Assembly: GCA_029932915.1 (NCBI GenBank) | Contig: JAOZPE010000002.1 | Location: 71,546-119,023, forward strand | Length of the DNA stretch: 47,478 nucleotides | Reading direction: 5' to 3' | Source of the DNA: Candidatus Krumholzibacteriia bacterium | Lineage (GTDB): Bacteria; Krumholzibacteriota; Krumholzibacteriia; JAJRXK01 | Shown: positions 1-32,432 of the stretch, piece by piece | Position numbering within the stretch: the first letter of the stretch is position 1 | Layout of the letters: each line of letters opens with the position of its first letter | The notes under the pieces: generated by a model | What the model was told of the DNA's origin: nothing | What the model saw: only the letters and a program-made list of their open reading frames with translations | Database searches by the model: none | Program-made: the position numbers and the translations under genes

Positions 1-2022
1 CTTCAGGTTCGTCTCGTGGATGCGGGCGAAGGAGCGCACCAGTACCGCCTTGGCTCCGAGGTGGCGGGGCTCCATGGCGGCATGCTCGCGTGAGCTGCCC
101 TCTCCGTAGTTCTCGTCGCCGACGGCGATCCAGCCCTTGCCGGCCGCCTTGTAGGCGCGGGCCACCTTGGAGAAGGCGTCGATGCTGCCGTCGAGCTGGT
201 TCTTGCCCCTTCCCACCTCGTCGCGGAAGGCATTGACCGCGCCGATGAAGAGGTTGTCGCTGATGTTGTCGAGATGACCGCGGAAACGCAGCCACGGCCC
301 GGCCGGCGAGATGTGGTCGGTGGTGCACTTGCCCTTGGCCTTGAGCAGGACGAAGAGATCCTCGAAGTCCTTGCCGTCCCAGGGCTCGAAGGGAGTGAGC
401 AGTTGCAGGCGTTCGCTGTCGGGGGCGACCTTCACCTCGACCTCGCCGCTGTCTTCGACGGGGGGGAGGAAATAGGAGGTGTCCCCGGGGTCGAAGCCGC
501 GGCGGGGCAGCTCATCGCCGAAGGGCGGCTCGAGTTTGAAGGTGCTTCCATCTTCGGCGGTGAGGGTGTCGGTCAGCGGGTTGAAGTCGAGGCGCCCGGC
601 CAGGGCCAGGGCGGTGACGATCTCCGGGCTGCCGATGAAGGCGTGGGTCTCGGGATTGCCGTCGTTGCGCTTGCGGAAGTTGCGGTTGTAGGAGGTGACG
701 ATGCTGTTGGGCTGGCCCTGGGGCACGTCGTCACGCTGCCACTGCCCGATGCAGGGTCCGCAGGCATTGGCCAGCACCACGCCGCCGATCCCGGTGAGGG
801 TCTCCAACTGGCCGTCGCGTTCGATGGTGGCCCGCACCTGCTCGCTGCCCGGGGTGATGAGGAACTGCGTGTGGGCCTTCAGCCCCTTCTCCAGGGCCTG
901 CCGGGCCAGGTTCGCCGAGCGGTCGATGTCCTCGTAGCTCGAGTTCGTGCACGAGCCGATCAAAGCGGCCGACAGCTCCATGGGGTAGCCACTCTCGCGG
1001 GCGTCGGCGGCCATCTTCGAGATGGGATGGGCCAGGTCGGGGGTGTGGGGTCCCACCAGGTGCGGTTCGAGGGTGGACAGGTCGATCTCGACGATCTCGT
1101 CGTAGTAGTCCTCCGGATGGGCCAGCACCTCCGGATCGGCGGTGAGCTCGGCCGCGTGCTCGCGGGCCAGCCTGGCGACCTCGCCGCGCTCGGTGGCCTC
1201 CAGATAGGCCGCCATGCGCTCGTCGAAGGGGAAGAGGCTGGTGGTCGCCCCCAGCTCGGCTCCCATGTTGCAGATCGTGGCCTTGCCGGTGCACGAGATG
1301 CTGCGGGTGCCCTCGCCGAAGTACTCGACGATCTTGCCCGTGCCGCCCTTGACCGTGAGCAATCCGGCCAGCTTGAGGATGACGTCCTTGGGTGCGGTCC
1401 AACCGTTCAGTGAACCGGTGAGCTTGACCCCGATGAGCCGGGGCCACAGCACCTGCCAGGGCATGCCCACCATGGCGTCGACCGCATCGGCCCCGCCCAC
1501 GCCGACCGCGATCATGCCCAGACCGCCCGCGTTGGGGGTGTGGCTGTCCGTCCCGATCATCATCATGCCCGGGGCGGCGTAGTTCTCCAGCACCACCTGG
1601 TGGATGATGCCGGCACCCGGCTTCCAGAAGCCGATGCCGTACTTCCTGGACGCGGTGCGCAGGAACTCGTAGACCTCGCCGTTCTCCTCCTCGGCGGTCC
1701 GCAGATCCTCGGCCGCGCCGGTGTGGGCCCGGATGAGGTGGTCACAGTGGACCGTGCTGGGGGTGGCCACCTTCTTCTTGCCCGCGGAGATGAACTGCAG
1801 CAGGGCCATCTGGGCGGTGGCGTCCTGCATGGCGACGCGGTCGGGACGCAGATCGACCACGCTGGAACCGCGGGTGGGGGCCTGGCTGCGGTCCACCAGA
1901 TGGCTGAAGAGGATCTTCTCGGCCAAGGTCAGCGGGTGTCCGAGGACCTTGCGGCCCTCCTCGTGGCGGTCGGCGAATCCCCGATAGGCCGTCTCGATGG
2001 CCTGCAACCAGTTCTTGTCCAT
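1..2022 (-). CDS. acn: Aconitate hydratase, mitochondrial-type (3' end outside window)
   Basis: Isomerises citrate to isocitrate in the TCA cycle through a [4Fe-4S] cluster. It reads leftward from ATG at 2022 and is open to base 1, giving 674 residues. Mitochondrial-type aconitases are about 750-780 residues, so roughly 80-100 C-terminal residues lie outside. Cluster ligands are visible as SCTNSS (C358) and ACGPCIGQW (C421, C424); these numbers coincide with those of mature pig heart aconitase. [13 protein letters not shown] and [18 protein letters not shown] are further family signatures. It faces a divergent DUF481 gene across a 175-base gap. A possible leftward promoter, TTACTG-N17-TTCTAT, lies near 2125-2155 but is weak. 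Family assignment is very secure. Confidence 0.97.
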
Positions 2023-2197
2023 GACGCGATCCCTTCTCAGAGGTGGCGGAGGGCCTCGGCCGGGCGTTCCTTCCGGCGCGCGAGCATCCGGGGCTGGAGG
2101 CCGAGGCGGGTTCCGGCGGCAAATATAGAAGCTGCTGCGCTTTCGACCAGTAAGGTATGGTACCGCAGGAGTCCCCGAAGGAGGAGACGATACGACG

Positions 2198-2974
2198 ATG
2201 ACGCATCGCGCACGCTGGTTCGCGTTGATCCCGGCGCTCACCGCGCTGGTTCTCACTGGTCCCGTTCGCCCCTGTCCGGCCCAGATCGTCAACACCCTCC
2301 GGGGCTTCTCCGACGAGGAACCGGGCTTCGACGGCGAGCTGAGCCTGTACATGGACCTGGCCCAGGGGAACACCGAATACCAGGAGTTCAGTGGCTCGTT
2401 GACCTTCCAGTGGAAGGGCCGGCGGCAGCGGGTGCGAGTGCTGAGCTCGGGACGCTGGAAGACCGCCCGCGGGGAGGACGTGGCCAACGCCAGCAGCGGT
2501 CACCTGCGCCACAACTGGTGGTTCGCCCACCGGTGGGGGACCATCGTCTTCGTGCAGAACCAGCACGACCGCTTCCAGCGCCTGAAGAGCCGTTTCCTGT
2601 TGGGTGGCGGCCTGCGCTGGGATCTGCATCGCTCGCGCGCCTTCGACGCCTTCGTCGGCATGACCACCATGCTGGAGAACGAGCGGCTCGAGGGCGACGG
2701 CCGCTCGGAGCCCCGGCGCCAGCGCATGTCCTCGTTCCTGTCCCTCCTCTTCGATCTCAACGATCACGCCACCTTCGACATGGTGGCCTTCTACCAACCC
2801 CGGTGGGCCGATTTCTCCGACTTCCGCTCGTCCCTGCAGGCCCGGTTGAAGACCGATGTGGTGGCCCAGCTCTACTTCGAGCTGAACTTCTCGCACCGCT
2901 ACGATTCCCGACCACCGGAGGGGGTCAAACGGGACGATTGGACCCTGCGGACGGGTCTGGGGATGAAGTTCTGA
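2198..2974 (+). CDS. DUF481-family outer-membrane beta-barrel protein
   Basis: Protein of 258 residues with an N-terminal signal peptide (roughly 1-29, ending PCPAQ). The rest is alternating aromatic/polar strands typical of a small barrel, ending in an aromatic residue (GLGMKF) as outer-membrane proteins do. The [19 protein letters not shown] segment and the length resemble the DUF481 (YdiY-like) family, whose function is unknown. The ATG follows GGAGGAG by 11 bases. The last 50 bases overlap, tail to tail, the end of the MATE gene on the other strand. The DUF481 call is by pattern; the outer-membrane location is inference. Confidence 0.75.
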
Positions 2975-4332: not shown

Positions 4333-5223
4333 TCACTGCACCTCGATCACGGGTTGGGTCTTCTTGCGGCCTCCGTACTGGAACTGGAAACCGTGTTCGT
4401 TCCGGTCGGTGAGCACCATCAACTCGAGGAACCACGCCTCCTGGCAGGTGGGCAGGGTGGCCTCGATCCGCGCCCGCCAGGGTTCGATGCTCGCTCTCAT
4501 GGCCTGGGGCAGACCGTCCTCGAAGGGAATGCGGTCGTCTCCGATCGGGCCGTGGTCGAGTGCGTCGTCCAGGGCGGCGAGCCATTCCTGCTGGGCGACG
4601 TCGAGCTCGTCGAGGGCCCGCAGCGCCCGGCGTGCGTTCTCCAGTTGGTGGATGAAGCCCTTGCGCAGTTCACTGCGGGCTTCGGACAGCTTCACCATCT
4701 CGAGCGAATCGGGCTGCGCCTGGCGGCACCGCGGGGGATTCCATTGGAGATCGCAGATCGCCGTGACCGTGGTGAGGAAGAGGTATTCGCCGGGACCCAT
4801 TTCCTCCACCAGCAGGAGGGAGTCGCGCGCCGCGAGGAAGGAGGCGGCCACCCGGGCCACGCCCATTCCTCCCTTGGCCATCTTCAGGCCGATCTTCAGC
4901 TTCTCCAGTCCCTTGGCCTCGTCGAGGCGGCGTTCCTGGTCAGCGAGGTGCTCGAGTGCATGGAGGAAGGCGGTCCCGTCGTCGGGAAGGTTCTCGCGTA
5001 CCCTGAGGTAGCTCTCCAGGCGTTCGGCCCTCAGGCGTCCGTCCAGGGGCGGGACGTAGTCGTCGATCCCACCGTAGAGCTGCACCAGCTCCTTGCGCTG
5101 TTTCTCCAGCGAATCCACCGGCAACTGGTGCTTCAGCGAACGCACGAGCAGCCAGGACGACACCAGTCCGATCAACAGGACCAGGGCGACGAGAACTCCA
5201 CATCCGATCATGAACTTGCGCAC
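4333..5223 (-). CDS. Membrane-anchored protein of unknown function
   Basis: Not recognised. 296 residues starting at GTG, with a good GGAGG site 7 bases upstream. Residues about 5-27 form one hydrophobic helix (signal anchor). The remainder is mostly charged and helical: a heptad-like stretch around DQERRLDEAKGLEKLKIGLK, a glycine/alanine-rich segment GGMGVARVAASFLAARDS, and a central EYLFLTTVTAICDLQW stretch. The only cysteines apart from the anchor are a C-D and a C-R pair in the middle and one near the end. It sits between a secreted PLD-like enzyme (66 bases upstream) and a MATE exporter (7 bases downstream), so the three are probably co-transcribed. A role at the cell envelope is the only reasonable inference. 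Confidence 0.7.
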   Translation of the reverse strand: MRKFMIGCGVLVALVLLIGLVSSWLLVRSLKHQLPVDSLEKQRKELVQLYGGIDDYVPPLDGRLRAERLESYLRVRENLPDDGTAFLHALEHLADQERRLDEAKGLEKLKIGLKMAKGGMGVARVAASFLAARDSLLLVEEMGPGEYLFLTTVTAICDLQWNPPRCRQAQPDSLEMVKLSEARSELRKGFIHQLENARRALRALDELDVAQQEWLAALDDALDHGPIGDDRIPFEDGLPQAMRASIEPWRARIEATLPTCQEAWFLELMVLTDRNEHGFQFQYGGRKKTQPVIEVQ

Positions 5224-5289
5224 GGGACCACCTCCGGTTGGCTGGGCTCGTCGAGGGTGACATGCTCCGGCGCTTTCGCCAAGAGCAGG

Positions 5290-6582
5290 CTACCGGGCGA
5301 CCCGCGGTTTCTCATACCGCGCCCCCGGTTGCACCGTCTCCACGTAGCCGCTGTCCCACAGGCTCTGGAAGAATGCCTCCAGCCGGGCGGCCAGGGCCTT
5401 GTCCTCCATGACCAGGCCGACGTTGCGGGAGGTGTGGAAATAGCTCTTCTCCCAGTTGGACGTGCCCACCCAGGCCCTCGCTCCGTCCACGACCAGGTAC
5501 TTGGCGTGGATCACCCGGGCGAAGGGGACGAATCCGCCCGACCAGGGAGGAATCGTGGCCAGCTTCACCGTGATGTGCTCGAGGCACTGCAGGCTCTGCA
5601 GCCCACGGATGGTGGCACCTCCCTTGGACCAGTCGGCCACGATCATCTCCACCTCGACCCCGCGGGCCGCGGCCGCGCGCAAGGCATCCTCCAGCACGTT
5701 CCAGTAGCGGTGGTCGCGGCCGATGGCCTTGTACGACAGCAATTGAACGCGGATGCTTCGTTGGGCACCGTCCAGCAGGGAGACGATCCGGGGCAGATCC
5801 CAGTCGCCGGGATCGGGCAGGAAGCCGGTGGGGCTGAAGGCGCAGTGGTAGCCCTCGGGCAGGGGCGTATCGAGCGGAGGGAAGTGGGGGATGGCTTCGC
5901 CATGGGCCAGGGCCCAGTCGTAGTCGAAGACACGGGCGAGCTTCCCGGTGAGGGTGGGGTCGTGGATCCGCAGCCCGAGTTCCTGGATGTGGGCCAGCGA
6001 GCGCCAGTCGAAGTTCTGGCTGCCCAGGTAGGCTTCACGCCGGTCGATCACGAAGTACTTGGCGTGCAGGACGCCTCCCATGACCGATGCGACATCGAAG
6101 AGGGTCACCTCGATTCCCTCATGGGCGTCGAGGCGGTCGAGGGTCTCCGGGTAGGTGCGGTAGAACTTCTTCTCGGCCAGGAATCGCACCCGTACCCCGC
6201 GTTCGGCGGCGGCCTCGATGGCCTCGATCACCGCCTCGAGCCTTCCGGCCACCTCGGGGTGGGCCGTCCGCAGGCTGTCCGGCGCATTGGAGACGTAGAA
6301 TTCGGCGAAGTCGAGGGTCCTGGTGGCCCCGGCGATCATCTCCAGCCACACCGCCGGTGCGTCGGCGATGTCCGGATGGTCGAGGGTGGTCTCCACCGGC
6401 CAGCTCTCGACGAGTTCGACCGGGGAAGGATCGCCGGCCATGACGGCCTGCCCCGCGGCGCCGCCGGCCTGTGCCGCAACCGCCGGCCAGGCGATGGCGG
6501 CGAGGCTGCCGATGAGGCCCAGGAGGAAGGGTCGTGCCGCAGCGCCGCCGAGACGGGGGATCCAATCACAGCCGCACACCAT
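5290..6582 (-). CDS. Secreted phospholipase D-superfamily protein, PLD3/PLD4/K4-like
   Basis: 430 residues with two HKD motifs: HAKYFVID (H173, K175, D180) followed by LGSQNFDWRSL, and HAKYLVVD (H359, K361, D366) followed by VGTSNWEKSYF. The surrounding text resembles animal PLD3/PLD4 and vaccinia K4 more than cardiolipin synthases: DWRSL-x(5)-ELG after the first motif and Y-F-H-T after the second. PLD3/4 are 5' exonucleases and lysophospholipid enzymes; the substrate here is unknown. An in-frame ATG lies further upstream at 6744, but ATG 6582 is preferred because GGAGG sits 6 bases before it and it leads straight into a signal peptide (FLLGLIGSLAAIAWPAVAAQA). A leftward promoter is proposed at 6633-6661. 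Exported to the periplasm or beyond. Confidence 0.88.
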   Translation of the reverse strand: MVCGCDWIPRLGGAAARPFLLGLIGSLAAIAWPAVAAQAGGAAGQAVMAGDPSPVELVESWPVETTLDHPDIADAPAVWLEMIAGATRTLDFAEFYVSNAPDSLRTAHPEVAGRLEAVIEAIEAAAERGVRVRFLAEKKFYRTYPETLDRLDAHEGIEVTLFDVASVMGGVLHAKYFVIDRREAYLGSQNFDWRSLAHIQELGLRIHDPTLTGKLARVFDYDWALAHGEAIPHFPPLDTPLPEGYHCAFSPTGFLPDPGDWDLPRIVSLLDGAQRSIRVQLLSYKAIGRDHRYWNVLEDALRAAAARGVEVEMIVADWSKGGATIRGLQSLQCLEHITVKLATIPPWSGGFVPFARVIHAKYLVVDGARAWVGTSNWEKSYFHTSRNVGLVMEDKALAARLEAFFQSLWDSGYVETVQPGARYEKPRVAR

Positions 6583-6632
6583 TGGGCACCTCCAGCAGGG
6601 GGAAGGGTTCGGGGGGGACGCCGATGCAAGCC

Positions 6633-6661
6633 ACACTAGCAGGTGCCCGCAGACGCGGGAA
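6633..6661 (-). promoter_or_regulatory. Candidate promoter of the PLD-like gene
   Basis: Read leftward: TTCCCG, 17 bases, TAGTGT. The -35 is a partial match to the TTGCCC form seen elsewhere in the window; the spacing is exact. It lies about 50 bases ahead of the PLD start codon. Confidence 0.4.
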
Positions 6662-6766
6662 GGAGAAGGCGCCGTCCCCTCCGGTGCGGGTACGGGTCCG
6701 CCGGACGGAGGCCACGTTCGAGACCGCGGCCGGGTGGAAGGCACCGTCGCCGGCCCGCATCGGCGG

Positions 6767-6795
6767 TTGCCCTGGGACGGGGCCTTCTCTACACT
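6767..6795 (+). promoter_or_regulatory. Promoter of rpiB-tal
   Basis: TTGCCC, exactly 17 bases, TACACT. Both hexamers are identical to those ahead of carbamate kinase at 17101-17129. Expected start of transcription is near 6802, leaving a leader of about 90 bases. Confidence 0.65.
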
Positions 6796-6892
6796 TCTTC
6801 TCCGCCGCTACGGTGGCGTCCGGCCCCTTGGGCCGCTGCCTCGCCCGATGCGCCCGAGTGGCTGCCCTTCAACCCCGGAAAGGTCGATCGCC

Positions 6893-7357
6893 ATGTCCCT
6901 GCGAAGCGTCGCCATCGGATGCGATCACGGTGGCTTTCCCCTGAAGCACACGGTCATGGAAACGGTGGAGGCCCTGGGCCTGAAGCCCATCGACTGCGGC
7001 ACCGACAGCGAGGCGTCGGTCGACTACCCCGACTACGCCTCGGCGGTGGCCCGCAAGATCATCGAAGGCGAAGCCCAACGCGGCATCGTCATCTGCGGCA
7101 GCGGGGTGGGCGCCTGCGTGGCGGTCAACAAGGTGGCCGGGATCCGCGCCGGTCTGTGCCACGATTGCTACTCGGCGCACCAGGGGGTCGAGCATGACGA
7201 CATGAACGTCCTGTGCCTGGGCGCCCGCATCGTGGGGGCCAACCTGGCCGACGAGCTGGTGCGCGCGTTCCTCGAGGCCGAGTTCACCGGCGAGGAGCGC
7301 CACGAGCGGCGCAAGGCCAAGGTCCTGGAGATGGAGAGGACGCAGAAACCCCTGTGA
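6893..7357 (+). CDS. rpiB: Ribose-5-phosphate isomerase B
   Basis: 154-residue RpiB/LacAB-family sugar-phosphate isomerase; interconverts ribulose-5- and ribose-5-phosphate in the cytoplasm. Diagnostic pieces are the N-terminal IGCDHGGFPLK (substrate-binding Asp-His), the catalytic cysteine C68 in VICGSGVGACVAVNKV, and HDDMNVLCLGARIVG, where RpiB binds the phosphate. Length is normal for RpiB. The upstream promoter matches the window consensus. Transaldolase starts 54 bases after its stop, so the two form a non-oxidative pentose-phosphate operon. Confidence 0.96.
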   Translation: MSLRSVAIGCDHGGFPLKHTVMETVEALGLKPIDCGTDSEASVDYPDYASAVARKIIEGEAQRGIVICGSGVGACVAVNKVAGIRAGLCHDCYSAHQGVEHDDMNVLCLGARIVGANLADELVRAFLEAEFTGEERHERRKAKVLEMERTQKPL

Positions 7358-30377: not shown

Positions 30378-30410
30378 GGAAATCGACCTCCAGCCGCCAG
30401 TTGGTGTCCG

Positions 30411-30845
30411 ATGGCTGCCTTCGTGAAGATCCATTCATCCTTGAGGATCCCCCGCCGCGAACTGAAGCTGCGCGCCTCGCACAGCGGGGGCCCCGGCGGC
30501 CAGCACGTCAACACCAGCGACACGCGGGTCGAACTGGTCTTCGACGTGGCGCACAGTCCCAGCCTGGGTCCGAATCAACGGCAACGCCTGCTGGAGGTGT
30601 TGGCCCGGCGTCTGGACCGCCACGGGCGGCTCCATCTGTTCTCTTCGCGTTTCCGCAGCCAGTCGGCGAACCGCGAGGACGTGATCGAGCGTTTCGCCGC
30701 CTTGCTGCGCGAAGCGCTGCGGCGCACTCGGCCGCGCAAGCCCACCCGGCCGACGGCCGCTTCCCGCCGCCGTCGCCGTGAGGAGAAGGAGCGGCGTTCC
30801 CGCAGGAAGCGGGACCGCCGTCCCGTCGATCCCCGGGAGGAGTGA
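30411..30845 (+). CDS. arfB: ArfB/YaeJ-like peptidyl-tRNA hydrolase (ribosome rescue)
   Basis: 144 residues. The GGQ loop of release factors is present in SGGPGGQHVNTSDTRVEL, with no codon-recognition domain, which defines ArfB/ICT1-type rescue factors that free ribosomes stalled on truncated mRNA. The C-terminal tail (about 105-144) is rich in Arg and Lys, as needed to enter the empty mRNA channel. ATG 30411 (MAAFVKIHSS) starts just ahead of the domain; an earlier in-frame ATG adds only low-complexity sequence. Divergent from the porin-like gene. Confidence 0.92.
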   Translation: MAAFVKIHSSLRIPRRELKLRASHSGGPGGQHVNTSDTRVELVFDVAHSPSLGPNQRQRLLEVLARRLDRHGRLHLFSSRFRSQSANREDVIERFAALLREALRRTRPRKPTRPTAASRRRRREEKERRSRRKRDRRPVDPREE

Positions 30846-31091: not shown

Positions 31092-31133
31092 TCTTCTGCC
31101 GGTGATCCCCATCTCCTCCAGGAGTGCGAACGG

Positions 31134-32432
31134 ATGGCCCGAACCATCTCGATCGTTCCCAAAGCGGGCTCGAGTTCCACCGACGGGCAGGCCGTCGACT
31201 ATTCCGCCCATCCTCTTCTCGATCCCACCTTCTTCGAGCGCGAGCCCGACGCCCTGCGTCACTATGTTCGCCTGATGCGGGAGAACCTGCGCAACCCCTG
31301 GCGTTACCAGGATCTGCTCAACCGCCTCCTGCATCCGATGTACGAGAAACATCCCCTGGAGGTGAACGAGCGGATCATCGCCTCGTATCTGAGTGATGCC
31401 AGTGCGTACGTGGCCCAGCTCGTCCTGCTGCTCCCGCCGGAGGAGCGCGATGCCTACCGCTGCGACGAGGAGATCGAGGCCACCAACGACATCCGCCGTC
31501 TGACCGAGCTGCTGTTCCGCGAACGCGACCCGCGACGGACCTTCGAGGCCCGCCGCAAGCTGTACCTGACCAAACTGCTCATCCAGATCGACCACACCCG
31601 GCGCATCCAGGAGGGTCCCCGGCACAAGCGCTTCCTGCTGTCACTGCTCGACCGTGGGCTGTGGGCCTACGTGCGGGAGACCCGTGAGGTGGAGGTGAGC
31701 TACGTCATCGACGAGGACGGCGTACACCTGGAGGAGGCGCGAGGGCGGCAGGAGGGTTACCACTGGTTCCGCTTCAAGACCCGGCGGGTGGTGCGCGATC
31801 TTCCCGGCGGACCCTACGACCTGCCCATCTACCACGTCTCGGCCCGCTTCAAGCTCGACGGCGCGCCGGTGGCGGGAATGCGGCAGGCGGATCGCCGTTC
31901 CCCCGACCTTCCCCGTCTCGAACGCATCCGTTCGGCCTCGGTGTTGTCGAAGATGCTGCGCAAGCGCATCAACGATCCGGTGGCCATCACCGACATCCTC
32001 GGCCTGCGCTTCATCGTCGAGACCGAACGCGAGGTGCTGCGCCTGGTCGATCTGCTGCACCACGTGCTCGGCGGACCGCTGGCCTTCCGCAATCAGGTCG
32101 ATCTCTTCCGTTTCCCCGAACAGCATACCCGGATGAACCGCTTCAGCAGCCGCGCGTTCCGGGTGTTCAAGGAGGACGTGGACATTCTCTATGCTCCCAC
32201 CCAGGGAGAGGCGGTGCGCCCGTACATCTTCCCCGTCGAGTTGCAGATCTTCACCGTGGAGAGCTACCTGCGCACGATCCACCGTCCCGACGCGGCCAGC
32301 CACCGCAGCTACAAGAGGCGTCAGTTCATCGAGGGGGTCTTCCCCTATCTCTTCCCCCAGGAGATCTATGGCCGCCCCGGGGCGGGGCGCTCCAGCGACG
32401 ACACCGAACGGAAGGACCGGCAACCGGCCTAG
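31134..32432 (+). CDS. Divergent RelA/SpoT-like nucleotidyltransferase protein with novel N-terminal region
   Basis: 432 residues. Residues about 1-215 are not recognised and mostly helical. Residues about 260-400 carry the landmarks of the (p)ppGpp synthetase fold: R264-I-R266-S with a following S and K (RIRSASVLSKMLRK), D287 in TDILGLRFIV (aligned with the Mg-binding D of D-I-A-G-x-R), E369 in PVELQIFT (aligned with the catalytic E of E-I-Q-I-R-T), and H390 in ASHRSYKRR (aligned with A-x-H-x-x-Y-K). The usual N-G-Y-x-S-x-H loop reads NRFSSRAF. No HD hydrolase, TGS or ACT domain is visible. ATG 31134 follows AGGAG by 9 bases. Active synthetase or altered substrate cannot be told by eye. Confidence 0.75.
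   Translation: MARTISIVPKAGSSSTDGQAVDYSAHPLLDPTFFEREPDALRHYVRLMRENLRNPWRYQDLLNRLLHPMYEKHPLEVNERIIASYLSDASAYVAQLVLLLPPEERDAYRCDEEIEATNDIRRLTELLFRERDPRRTFEARRKLYLTKLLIQIDHTRRIQEGPRHKRFLLSLLDRGLWAYVRETREVEVSYVIDEDGVHLEEARGRQEGYHWFRFKTRRVVRDLPGGPYDLPIYHVSARFKLDGAPVAGMRQADRRSPDLPRLERIRSASVLSKMLRKRINDPVAITDILGLRFIVETEREVLRLVDLLHHVLGGPLAFRNQVDLFRFPEQHTRMNRFSSRAFRVFKEDVDILYAPTQGEAVRPYIFPVELQIFTVESYLRTIHRPDAASHRSYKRRQFIEGVFPYLFPQEIYGRPGAGRSSDDTERKDRQPA

Follow-up and report, generated by a model that had tools for sequence, protein, structure and literature searches.

A RelA/SpoT-fold protein family of two uncultured bacterial phyla with a conserved N-terminal domain and a possible tie to sulfur metabolism

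The window analysed here, a stretch of 47,478 nucleotides from a Candidatus Krumholzibacteriia bacterium (genome G000; 98 contigs, 2.9 Mb), carries on its forward strand a gene at 31134..32432 for a 432-residue RelA/SpoT-fold protein, which we call P0001. The open reading frame starts with an ATG at 31134, preceded at a distance of nine nucleotides by a good Shine-Dalgarno sequence, AGGAG (31120..31124, + strand), and its stop codon ends at 32432, which agrees with the coordinates of the initial annotation. Open reading frame, profile, ortholog and fold data concur that the gene is real and belongs to an orthologous family. Searches of Pfam and NCBIfam detected no HD, TGS or ACT domain in the protein, as had been noted from the translation. 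Directly upstream on the same strand, and separated by 288 nt, is a gene (30387..30845) for an RF-1-domain protein that is ArfB-like by its GGPGGQHVN motif. On the 3' side a TerB-domain gene on the opposite strand is followed by genes for a cobalamin-type ABC transporter and a cobalamin adenosyltransferase. No operon is apparent at this locus, and no sulfur gene was found among the neighbours of the P0001 gene in the window.

Relatives of P0001 were not found by scanning genome contigs with its single sequence, unlike an alignment-based scan, which did recover them. The family is present in 32 of 80 Krumholzibacteriota genomes, where it is confined to two families, f6 and the window's own family f1, and in 11 of 47 genomes of Candidatus Eiseniibacteriota. 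This gives more than 40 orthologs over two phyla, and the named relatives returned by the alignment search are mostly metagenome-assembled genomes of Candidatus Krumholzibacteriota and Candidatus Eisenbacteria. All but one of the 32 Krumholzibacteriota carriers have a single copy. The exception, G009, has a second, fast-evolving f1 copy (locus L108, contig C38, positions 5955-7244; tree branch length 2.25) in which the core catalytic residues are retained. The tree resolves f1, f6 and Eiseniibacteriota as one clade each and groups genera together, which fits vertical inheritance; judged from these sequence relationships, the family's inheritance looks vertical. It is under purifying selection, with K273, D287, E369, Q371, H390 and K394 invariant in the aligned orthologs of both phyla at 30-55% identity. 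Searches of plasmids, phages and viral contigs returned no relative.

A canonical Rel is encoded separately in G000 (L001, a 903-aa frame in which HD, TGS and ACT regions were named by eye). In four other carriers that were inspected, a PF04607 match over the cut-off also exists besides the P0001 ortholog; it is a full-length Rel in three of them and a partial match in G080. The Eiseniibacteriota genome G082 additionally encodes a PF04607 protein of about 500 aa (66 bits; L095, contig C12, positions 985-2487, minus strand) that resembles neither Rel nor the P0001 family.

PF04607 (RelA_SpoT) matches P0001 with 21.3 bits and an E value of 3.5e-4, short of its gathering cut-off of 27 bits, and it matches 14 of 27 orthologs at E ≤ 1, with a best E value of 5.5e-6. 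PDB sequence searches yielded no RSH match, so that the link to the RSH superfamily comes from Pfam, hhalign and the fold. An AlphaFold2 model built from 27 orthologs reached a pTM of 0.75, and the top 50 Foldseek matches of this model in the PDB were all RelP, RelQ, Rel, RelA or CapRel, with RelP and RelQ first and probabilities of up to 1.00. The predicted fold thus places P0001 with the solved RSH synthetases, and the C-terminal half of the modelled protein is a RelA/SpoT synthetase domain. The initial annotation had proposed a separate family of RelA/SpoT fold whose N-terminal half was unrecognised, to be given up if neither a profile match nor a related fold was seen. The PF04607 match, although below cut-off, together with the RSH fold matches and the ortholog data, supports that proposal.

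The active site was compared with that of SaRelP, in which R78 stacks on the adenine, K80 contacts phosphate, S84, K88 and R91 contact the ATP phosphates, D107 binds Mg, R112 is the second adenine-stacking Arg, Y151 is the guanine Tyr, E174 is the catalytic Glu and H190 contacts the ribose (PMC5794853). These positions correspond in P0001 to R238, K240, S269, K273, R276, D287, residue 292, F342, E369 and H390, respectively, and nine of the ten are kept across the family, column 342 as Phe or Tyr and S269 with exceptions in two rows. P0001 has the residues with which RelP binds ATP and carries out catalysis, with the proviso that the mapping of R-x-K calls for an insertion of 25 residues and depends on omitting the insert at residues 243-265. 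This insert (31860..31928, + strand) is modelled with low confidence (pLDDT <50) and appears as a disordered link from the R-x-K strand to the S-x3-K helix; only after its omission does hhalign pair R238-x-K240 with R247-x-K249 of canonical Rel.

The invariant R238-F-K240 (31845..31853, + strand), the proposed equivalent of SaRelP R78/K80 (PMC5794853), is the more likely candidate for the true R-x-K motif, judged from its invariance, its position at a strand end and the insert-free hhalign alignment. In the model, residues 180-240 (31671..31853, + strand) form four beta strands; the last, terminating in R238-x-K240, is interpreted as the first synthetase strand. The assignment moves the start of the synthetase domain from residue 255, as first proposed, to about 205-225. 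The R-x-R-S at residues 264-267, initially read as a synthetase motif, was rejected as the catalytic R-x-K: it is not conserved, R264 and R266 being Ser, Thr, Gln, Asp or Glu in most relatives.

The other motifs, all on the plus strand and assigned by alignment to SaRelP (PMC5794853), follow in order. S269-x3-K273-x2-R276 (31938..31961) is the equivalent of S84, K88 and R91; D287-ILGL-R292 (31992..32009) holds the putative Mg-binding Asp and the second adenine-stacking position; E369-LQIF-T374 (32238..32255) contains the predicted catalytic Glu within VExQIxT; and H390-x3-K394-x-RQF (32301..32327) combines the probable ribose-contact His with an RQF extension. D287 in DILGLR, E369 in VELQIFT and H390 in HRSYK read as the initial annotation had them. 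The Arg at position 292, the counterpart of SaRelP R112, is peculiar to P0001: the remaining three f1 orthologs have Lys, and Met occupies this column in 11 of 11 Eiseniibacteriota and 12 of 13 f6 rows. As the second adenine-stacking Arg is replaced by Met in most relatives, ATP may bind differently there.

In (p)ppGpp synthetases the G-loop reads N-G-Y-x-S-x-H and its Tyr stacks on the guanine. The corresponding residues 335-346 of P0001, NRFSSRAFRVFK (32136..32171, + strand), form a remodelled G-loop with an invariant K346, for which two alignments gave different placements. One profile-profile alignment with Rel put F342 on the guanine-stacking Tyr and K346 on the His of YxSxH. A second hhalign alignment, with the insert left out, placed the loop as NRFSSRAF, the reading given earlier. 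We prefer F342 as the probable Tyr equivalent because column 342 is Phe or Tyr in 28 of 28 rows, whereas column 337 is variable. Compared with N-G-Y-x-S-x-H, P0001 keeps an aromatic residue at 342 and has the remaining motif changed. The earlier description of an altered substrate loop holds insofar as NRFSSRAF is present and the loop is remodelled; the alteration is partly a matter of alignment, given that all orthologs keep an aromatic residue beside K346.

The N-terminal half, of which about 215 residues had been called unfamiliar, indeed has no match. Residues 20-178 (31191..31667, + strand) are predicted to form a conserved all-helical domain with invariant H26, D119, E138, R141 and H164, for which no Pfam family was found, and the PDB contained no fold match to the N-terminal half at E <0.24. 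Modelled alone, residues 20-243 gave a mean pLDDT of 88. The N-terminal half, then, shows conservation and a confidently predicted fold, with no counterpart in the PDB. A degenerate HD domain at this end was considered, and the fold search, with all E values at or above 0.24, did not support it.

The neighbours of the family's genes differ by clade. A STAS-domain gene lies directly 3' of the P0001 ortholog in the remaining three f1 genomes (L033:7313-7660, L043:1595-2038 and L107:8403-9434), and DUF302 and convergent FIST genes come next in L043 and L107. In f6 a methionine-gamma-lyase-like gene is located directly upstream on the same strand, at 25-117 bp, in 23 of 23 loci; its closest models are those of methionine gamma-lyase, with scores below their cut-offs. 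The lyase (at least 68% identical) and the P0001 ortholog co-occur in 26 f6 genomes, and both are missing from others, including G035 and G036 (93% and 96% complete). Only G053 and G062 showed one gene without the other, and in both the gene is a fragment at a contig end. We count this synteny in f6 as one evolutionary event. G000 also has a methionine-gamma-lyase-like gene, 61% identical to the f6 enzyme, on another contig (L119, contig C32, positions 4541-5728), with no RSH gene adjoining. An obligatory partnership of the lyase with the P0001 family was rejected, since f1 genomes carry the family's gene without a lyase next door.

Among Eiseniibacteriota loci, ahcY precedes the P0001 ortholog of L117 on the same strand at a distance of 187 bp, and cysK/cysE are convergent to the family's gene in L051, L116 and L118, which fall in one clade. 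Several other loci of this phylum have upstream a divergent gene for a rhodanese-methyltransferase-B3/4 protein. The domains of this protein, rhodanese, SAM-dependent methyltransferase and B3/4 in one chain, were read in L113 (5235-6974, minus strand), and similar genes occur in L111, L112, L114 and L116. Sulfur neighbours thus recur, but each clade counts once, so that the association is suggestive only. Literature searches returned nothing that connects alarmones with methionine gamma-lyase or with operons of sulfur genes.

The closest named proteins are of several kinds. The best NCBIfam matches of P0001 are TIGR04562 (33.6 bits, cut-off 140) and TIGR04552 (30.5 bits, cut-off 125), both below cut-off. 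Two separate stretches of P0001 match TIGR04562: residues 267-309 align with profile positions 168-210 and residues 329-398, approximately, with 270-347; the latter stretch spans the remodelled G-loop through the RQF end. P0001 has about 100 more residues than these models ahead of the first matching block. No protein reached these cut-offs in any of the 78 Krumholzibacteriota and 46 Eiseniibacteriota genomes scanned. Loci outside the family, in these two phyla, match the first stretch alone; in a TIGR04552 scan of Eiseniibacteriota most of them were long Rel-like open frames, whereas the P0001-family loci matched the second stretch. Scores far below cut-off and the differing stretches place the P0001 family beside TIGR04552/TIGR04562, not inside. 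A TIGR04552 protein is annotated in Bdellovibrio sp. NC01, where an evolved population carried an indel in it, and the paper names no function (PMC9888234).

With RelP and RelQ the family shares the synthetase fold, R-x-K, S-x3-K-x2-R, the Asp, E-x-Q, the His and the aromatic G-loop residue; it differs from them by its extra N-terminal domain, the insert after R-x-K and the remodelled G-loop and, in most members, by Met at the second adenine-stacking position. The likeness to long Rel (HD-SYNTH-TGS-ACT, exemplified by L001) is restricted to the synthetase core, in which 43 to 45 columns align profile-profile, whereas HD, TGS and ACT are missing from P0001 and its N-terminal domain had no HD match in the fold search. 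A 2011 survey of RSH proteins defined twelve small synthetase groups and termed the leftovers divRel (PMC3153485). The P0001 family is without a name in the profile libraries.

The fold is also that of toxins: FaRel2 is an RSH toxin of this kind (PMC11559606), and exported and Tas1-type enzymes are RSH-fold toxins as well (PMC12691689). The initial annotation had accordingly called P0001 possibly toxic, and CapRel is indeed among its fold matches, with lower scores. A toxin of the toxSAS, CapRel or Tas1 kind would pyrophosphorylate tRNA or adenosine nucleotides and stop growth, and because RSH toxins act on these substrates with the same fold, the fold alone cannot decide the matter. The genomic setting argues against such a role. 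The gene is chromosomal, nearly always single-copy and apparently vertically inherited, and unlike the genes of these toxins it has neither an antitoxin partner nor a mobile context. No conserved adjacent antitoxin gene was found at the loci of the family; the neighbours are metabolic or regulatory and vary by clade, with no small antitoxin-like gene common to all. A toxin on a mobile element was rejected, since the searches of plasmids, phages and viral contigs came back empty, and so was assignment to a PADLOC defence family, for which the one match was marginal (E 0.036). With its near-complete ATP site, and with sulfur neighbours in many relatives, P0001 looks like a housekeeping signalling enzyme, and we consider a toxin highly improbable.

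P0001 might instead be an ordinary (p)ppGpp synthetase that transfers pyrophosphate to GDP or GTP, with the N-terminal domain as a regulatory add-on. Nine of the ten RelP active-site positions are kept, residue 342 is always Phe or Tyr, as base stacking needs, five of five inspected carriers have another PF04607 match over the cut-off, and the full-length Rels among these have an HD region with which the product could be broken down. However, N-G-Y-x-S-x-H is lost with Lys in place of His, the Arg of ExQIRT is Phe, Tyr, Leu or His in the family, and P0001 does not reach the PF04607 cut-off; we regard this reading as possible, though rather unlikely. We consider it quite improbable that P0001 lacks catalytic activity and serves as a nucleotide-binding sensor or scaffold whose effect, for instance on the neighbouring lyase, is exerted through the N-terminal domain. 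Most orthologs lack the second adenine-stacking Arg, which would suit such a role, as would the large conserved N-terminal domain without a fold match, but D287, E369, Q371, K273, H390 and K394 are invariant even in the fast-evolving L108.

The kept active-site residues argue for a predicted active ATP-dependent pyrophosphokinase. We therefore favour, with a probability of roughly 0.6, the reading of P0001 as a cytoplasmic, chromosomally encoded enzyme of this type in the RSH superfamily, perhaps tied to sulfur metabolism. Membership, fold, residue conservation and synteny were computed for the family; catalysis, acceptor and input we infer. ATP would be bound between R238 and residue 292, with its phosphates held by K240, S269, K273 and R276, and Mg2+ would sit on D287 and E369. 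A nucleotide-like acceptor, its base possibly packed on F342, would then receive pyrophosphate at its 3'-OH. The guanine-recognising loop is rebuilt, with the aromatic residue kept, N-G-Y-x-S-x-H changed and Lys in place of His, and the acceptor may or may not be a guanine nucleotide. The helical domain at residues 20-178 probably senses an input or binds a partner.

The outcome would be a dedicated signal or modification with a housekeeping role, linked to the metabolism of sulfur amino acids and SAM, and this is the weakest step of the proposal. Such a role is suggested by the single copy, the presence of a canonical Rel in inspected genomes and the relatives' neighbours (lyase-like, AhcY and CysK/CysE). 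A stronger version, in which the family is dedicated to sulfur amino-acid and SAM metabolism and uses its RSH site and rebuilt acceptor loop to make a non-(p)ppGpp signal or a modified RNA according to methionine, homocysteine or cysteine status, read by a new N-terminal sensor, seems to us unlikely.

If active, the P0001 family adds to the RSH superfamily a group unnamed in profile libraries, encoded by a single-copy chromosomal gene of two uncultured phyla and equipped with an N-terminal domain that has no fold match. Its fixed pairing with a methionine-gamma-lyase-like gene, along with the other sulfur neighbours, makes the coupling of an alarmone-type enzyme to sulfur metabolism a testable proposition.
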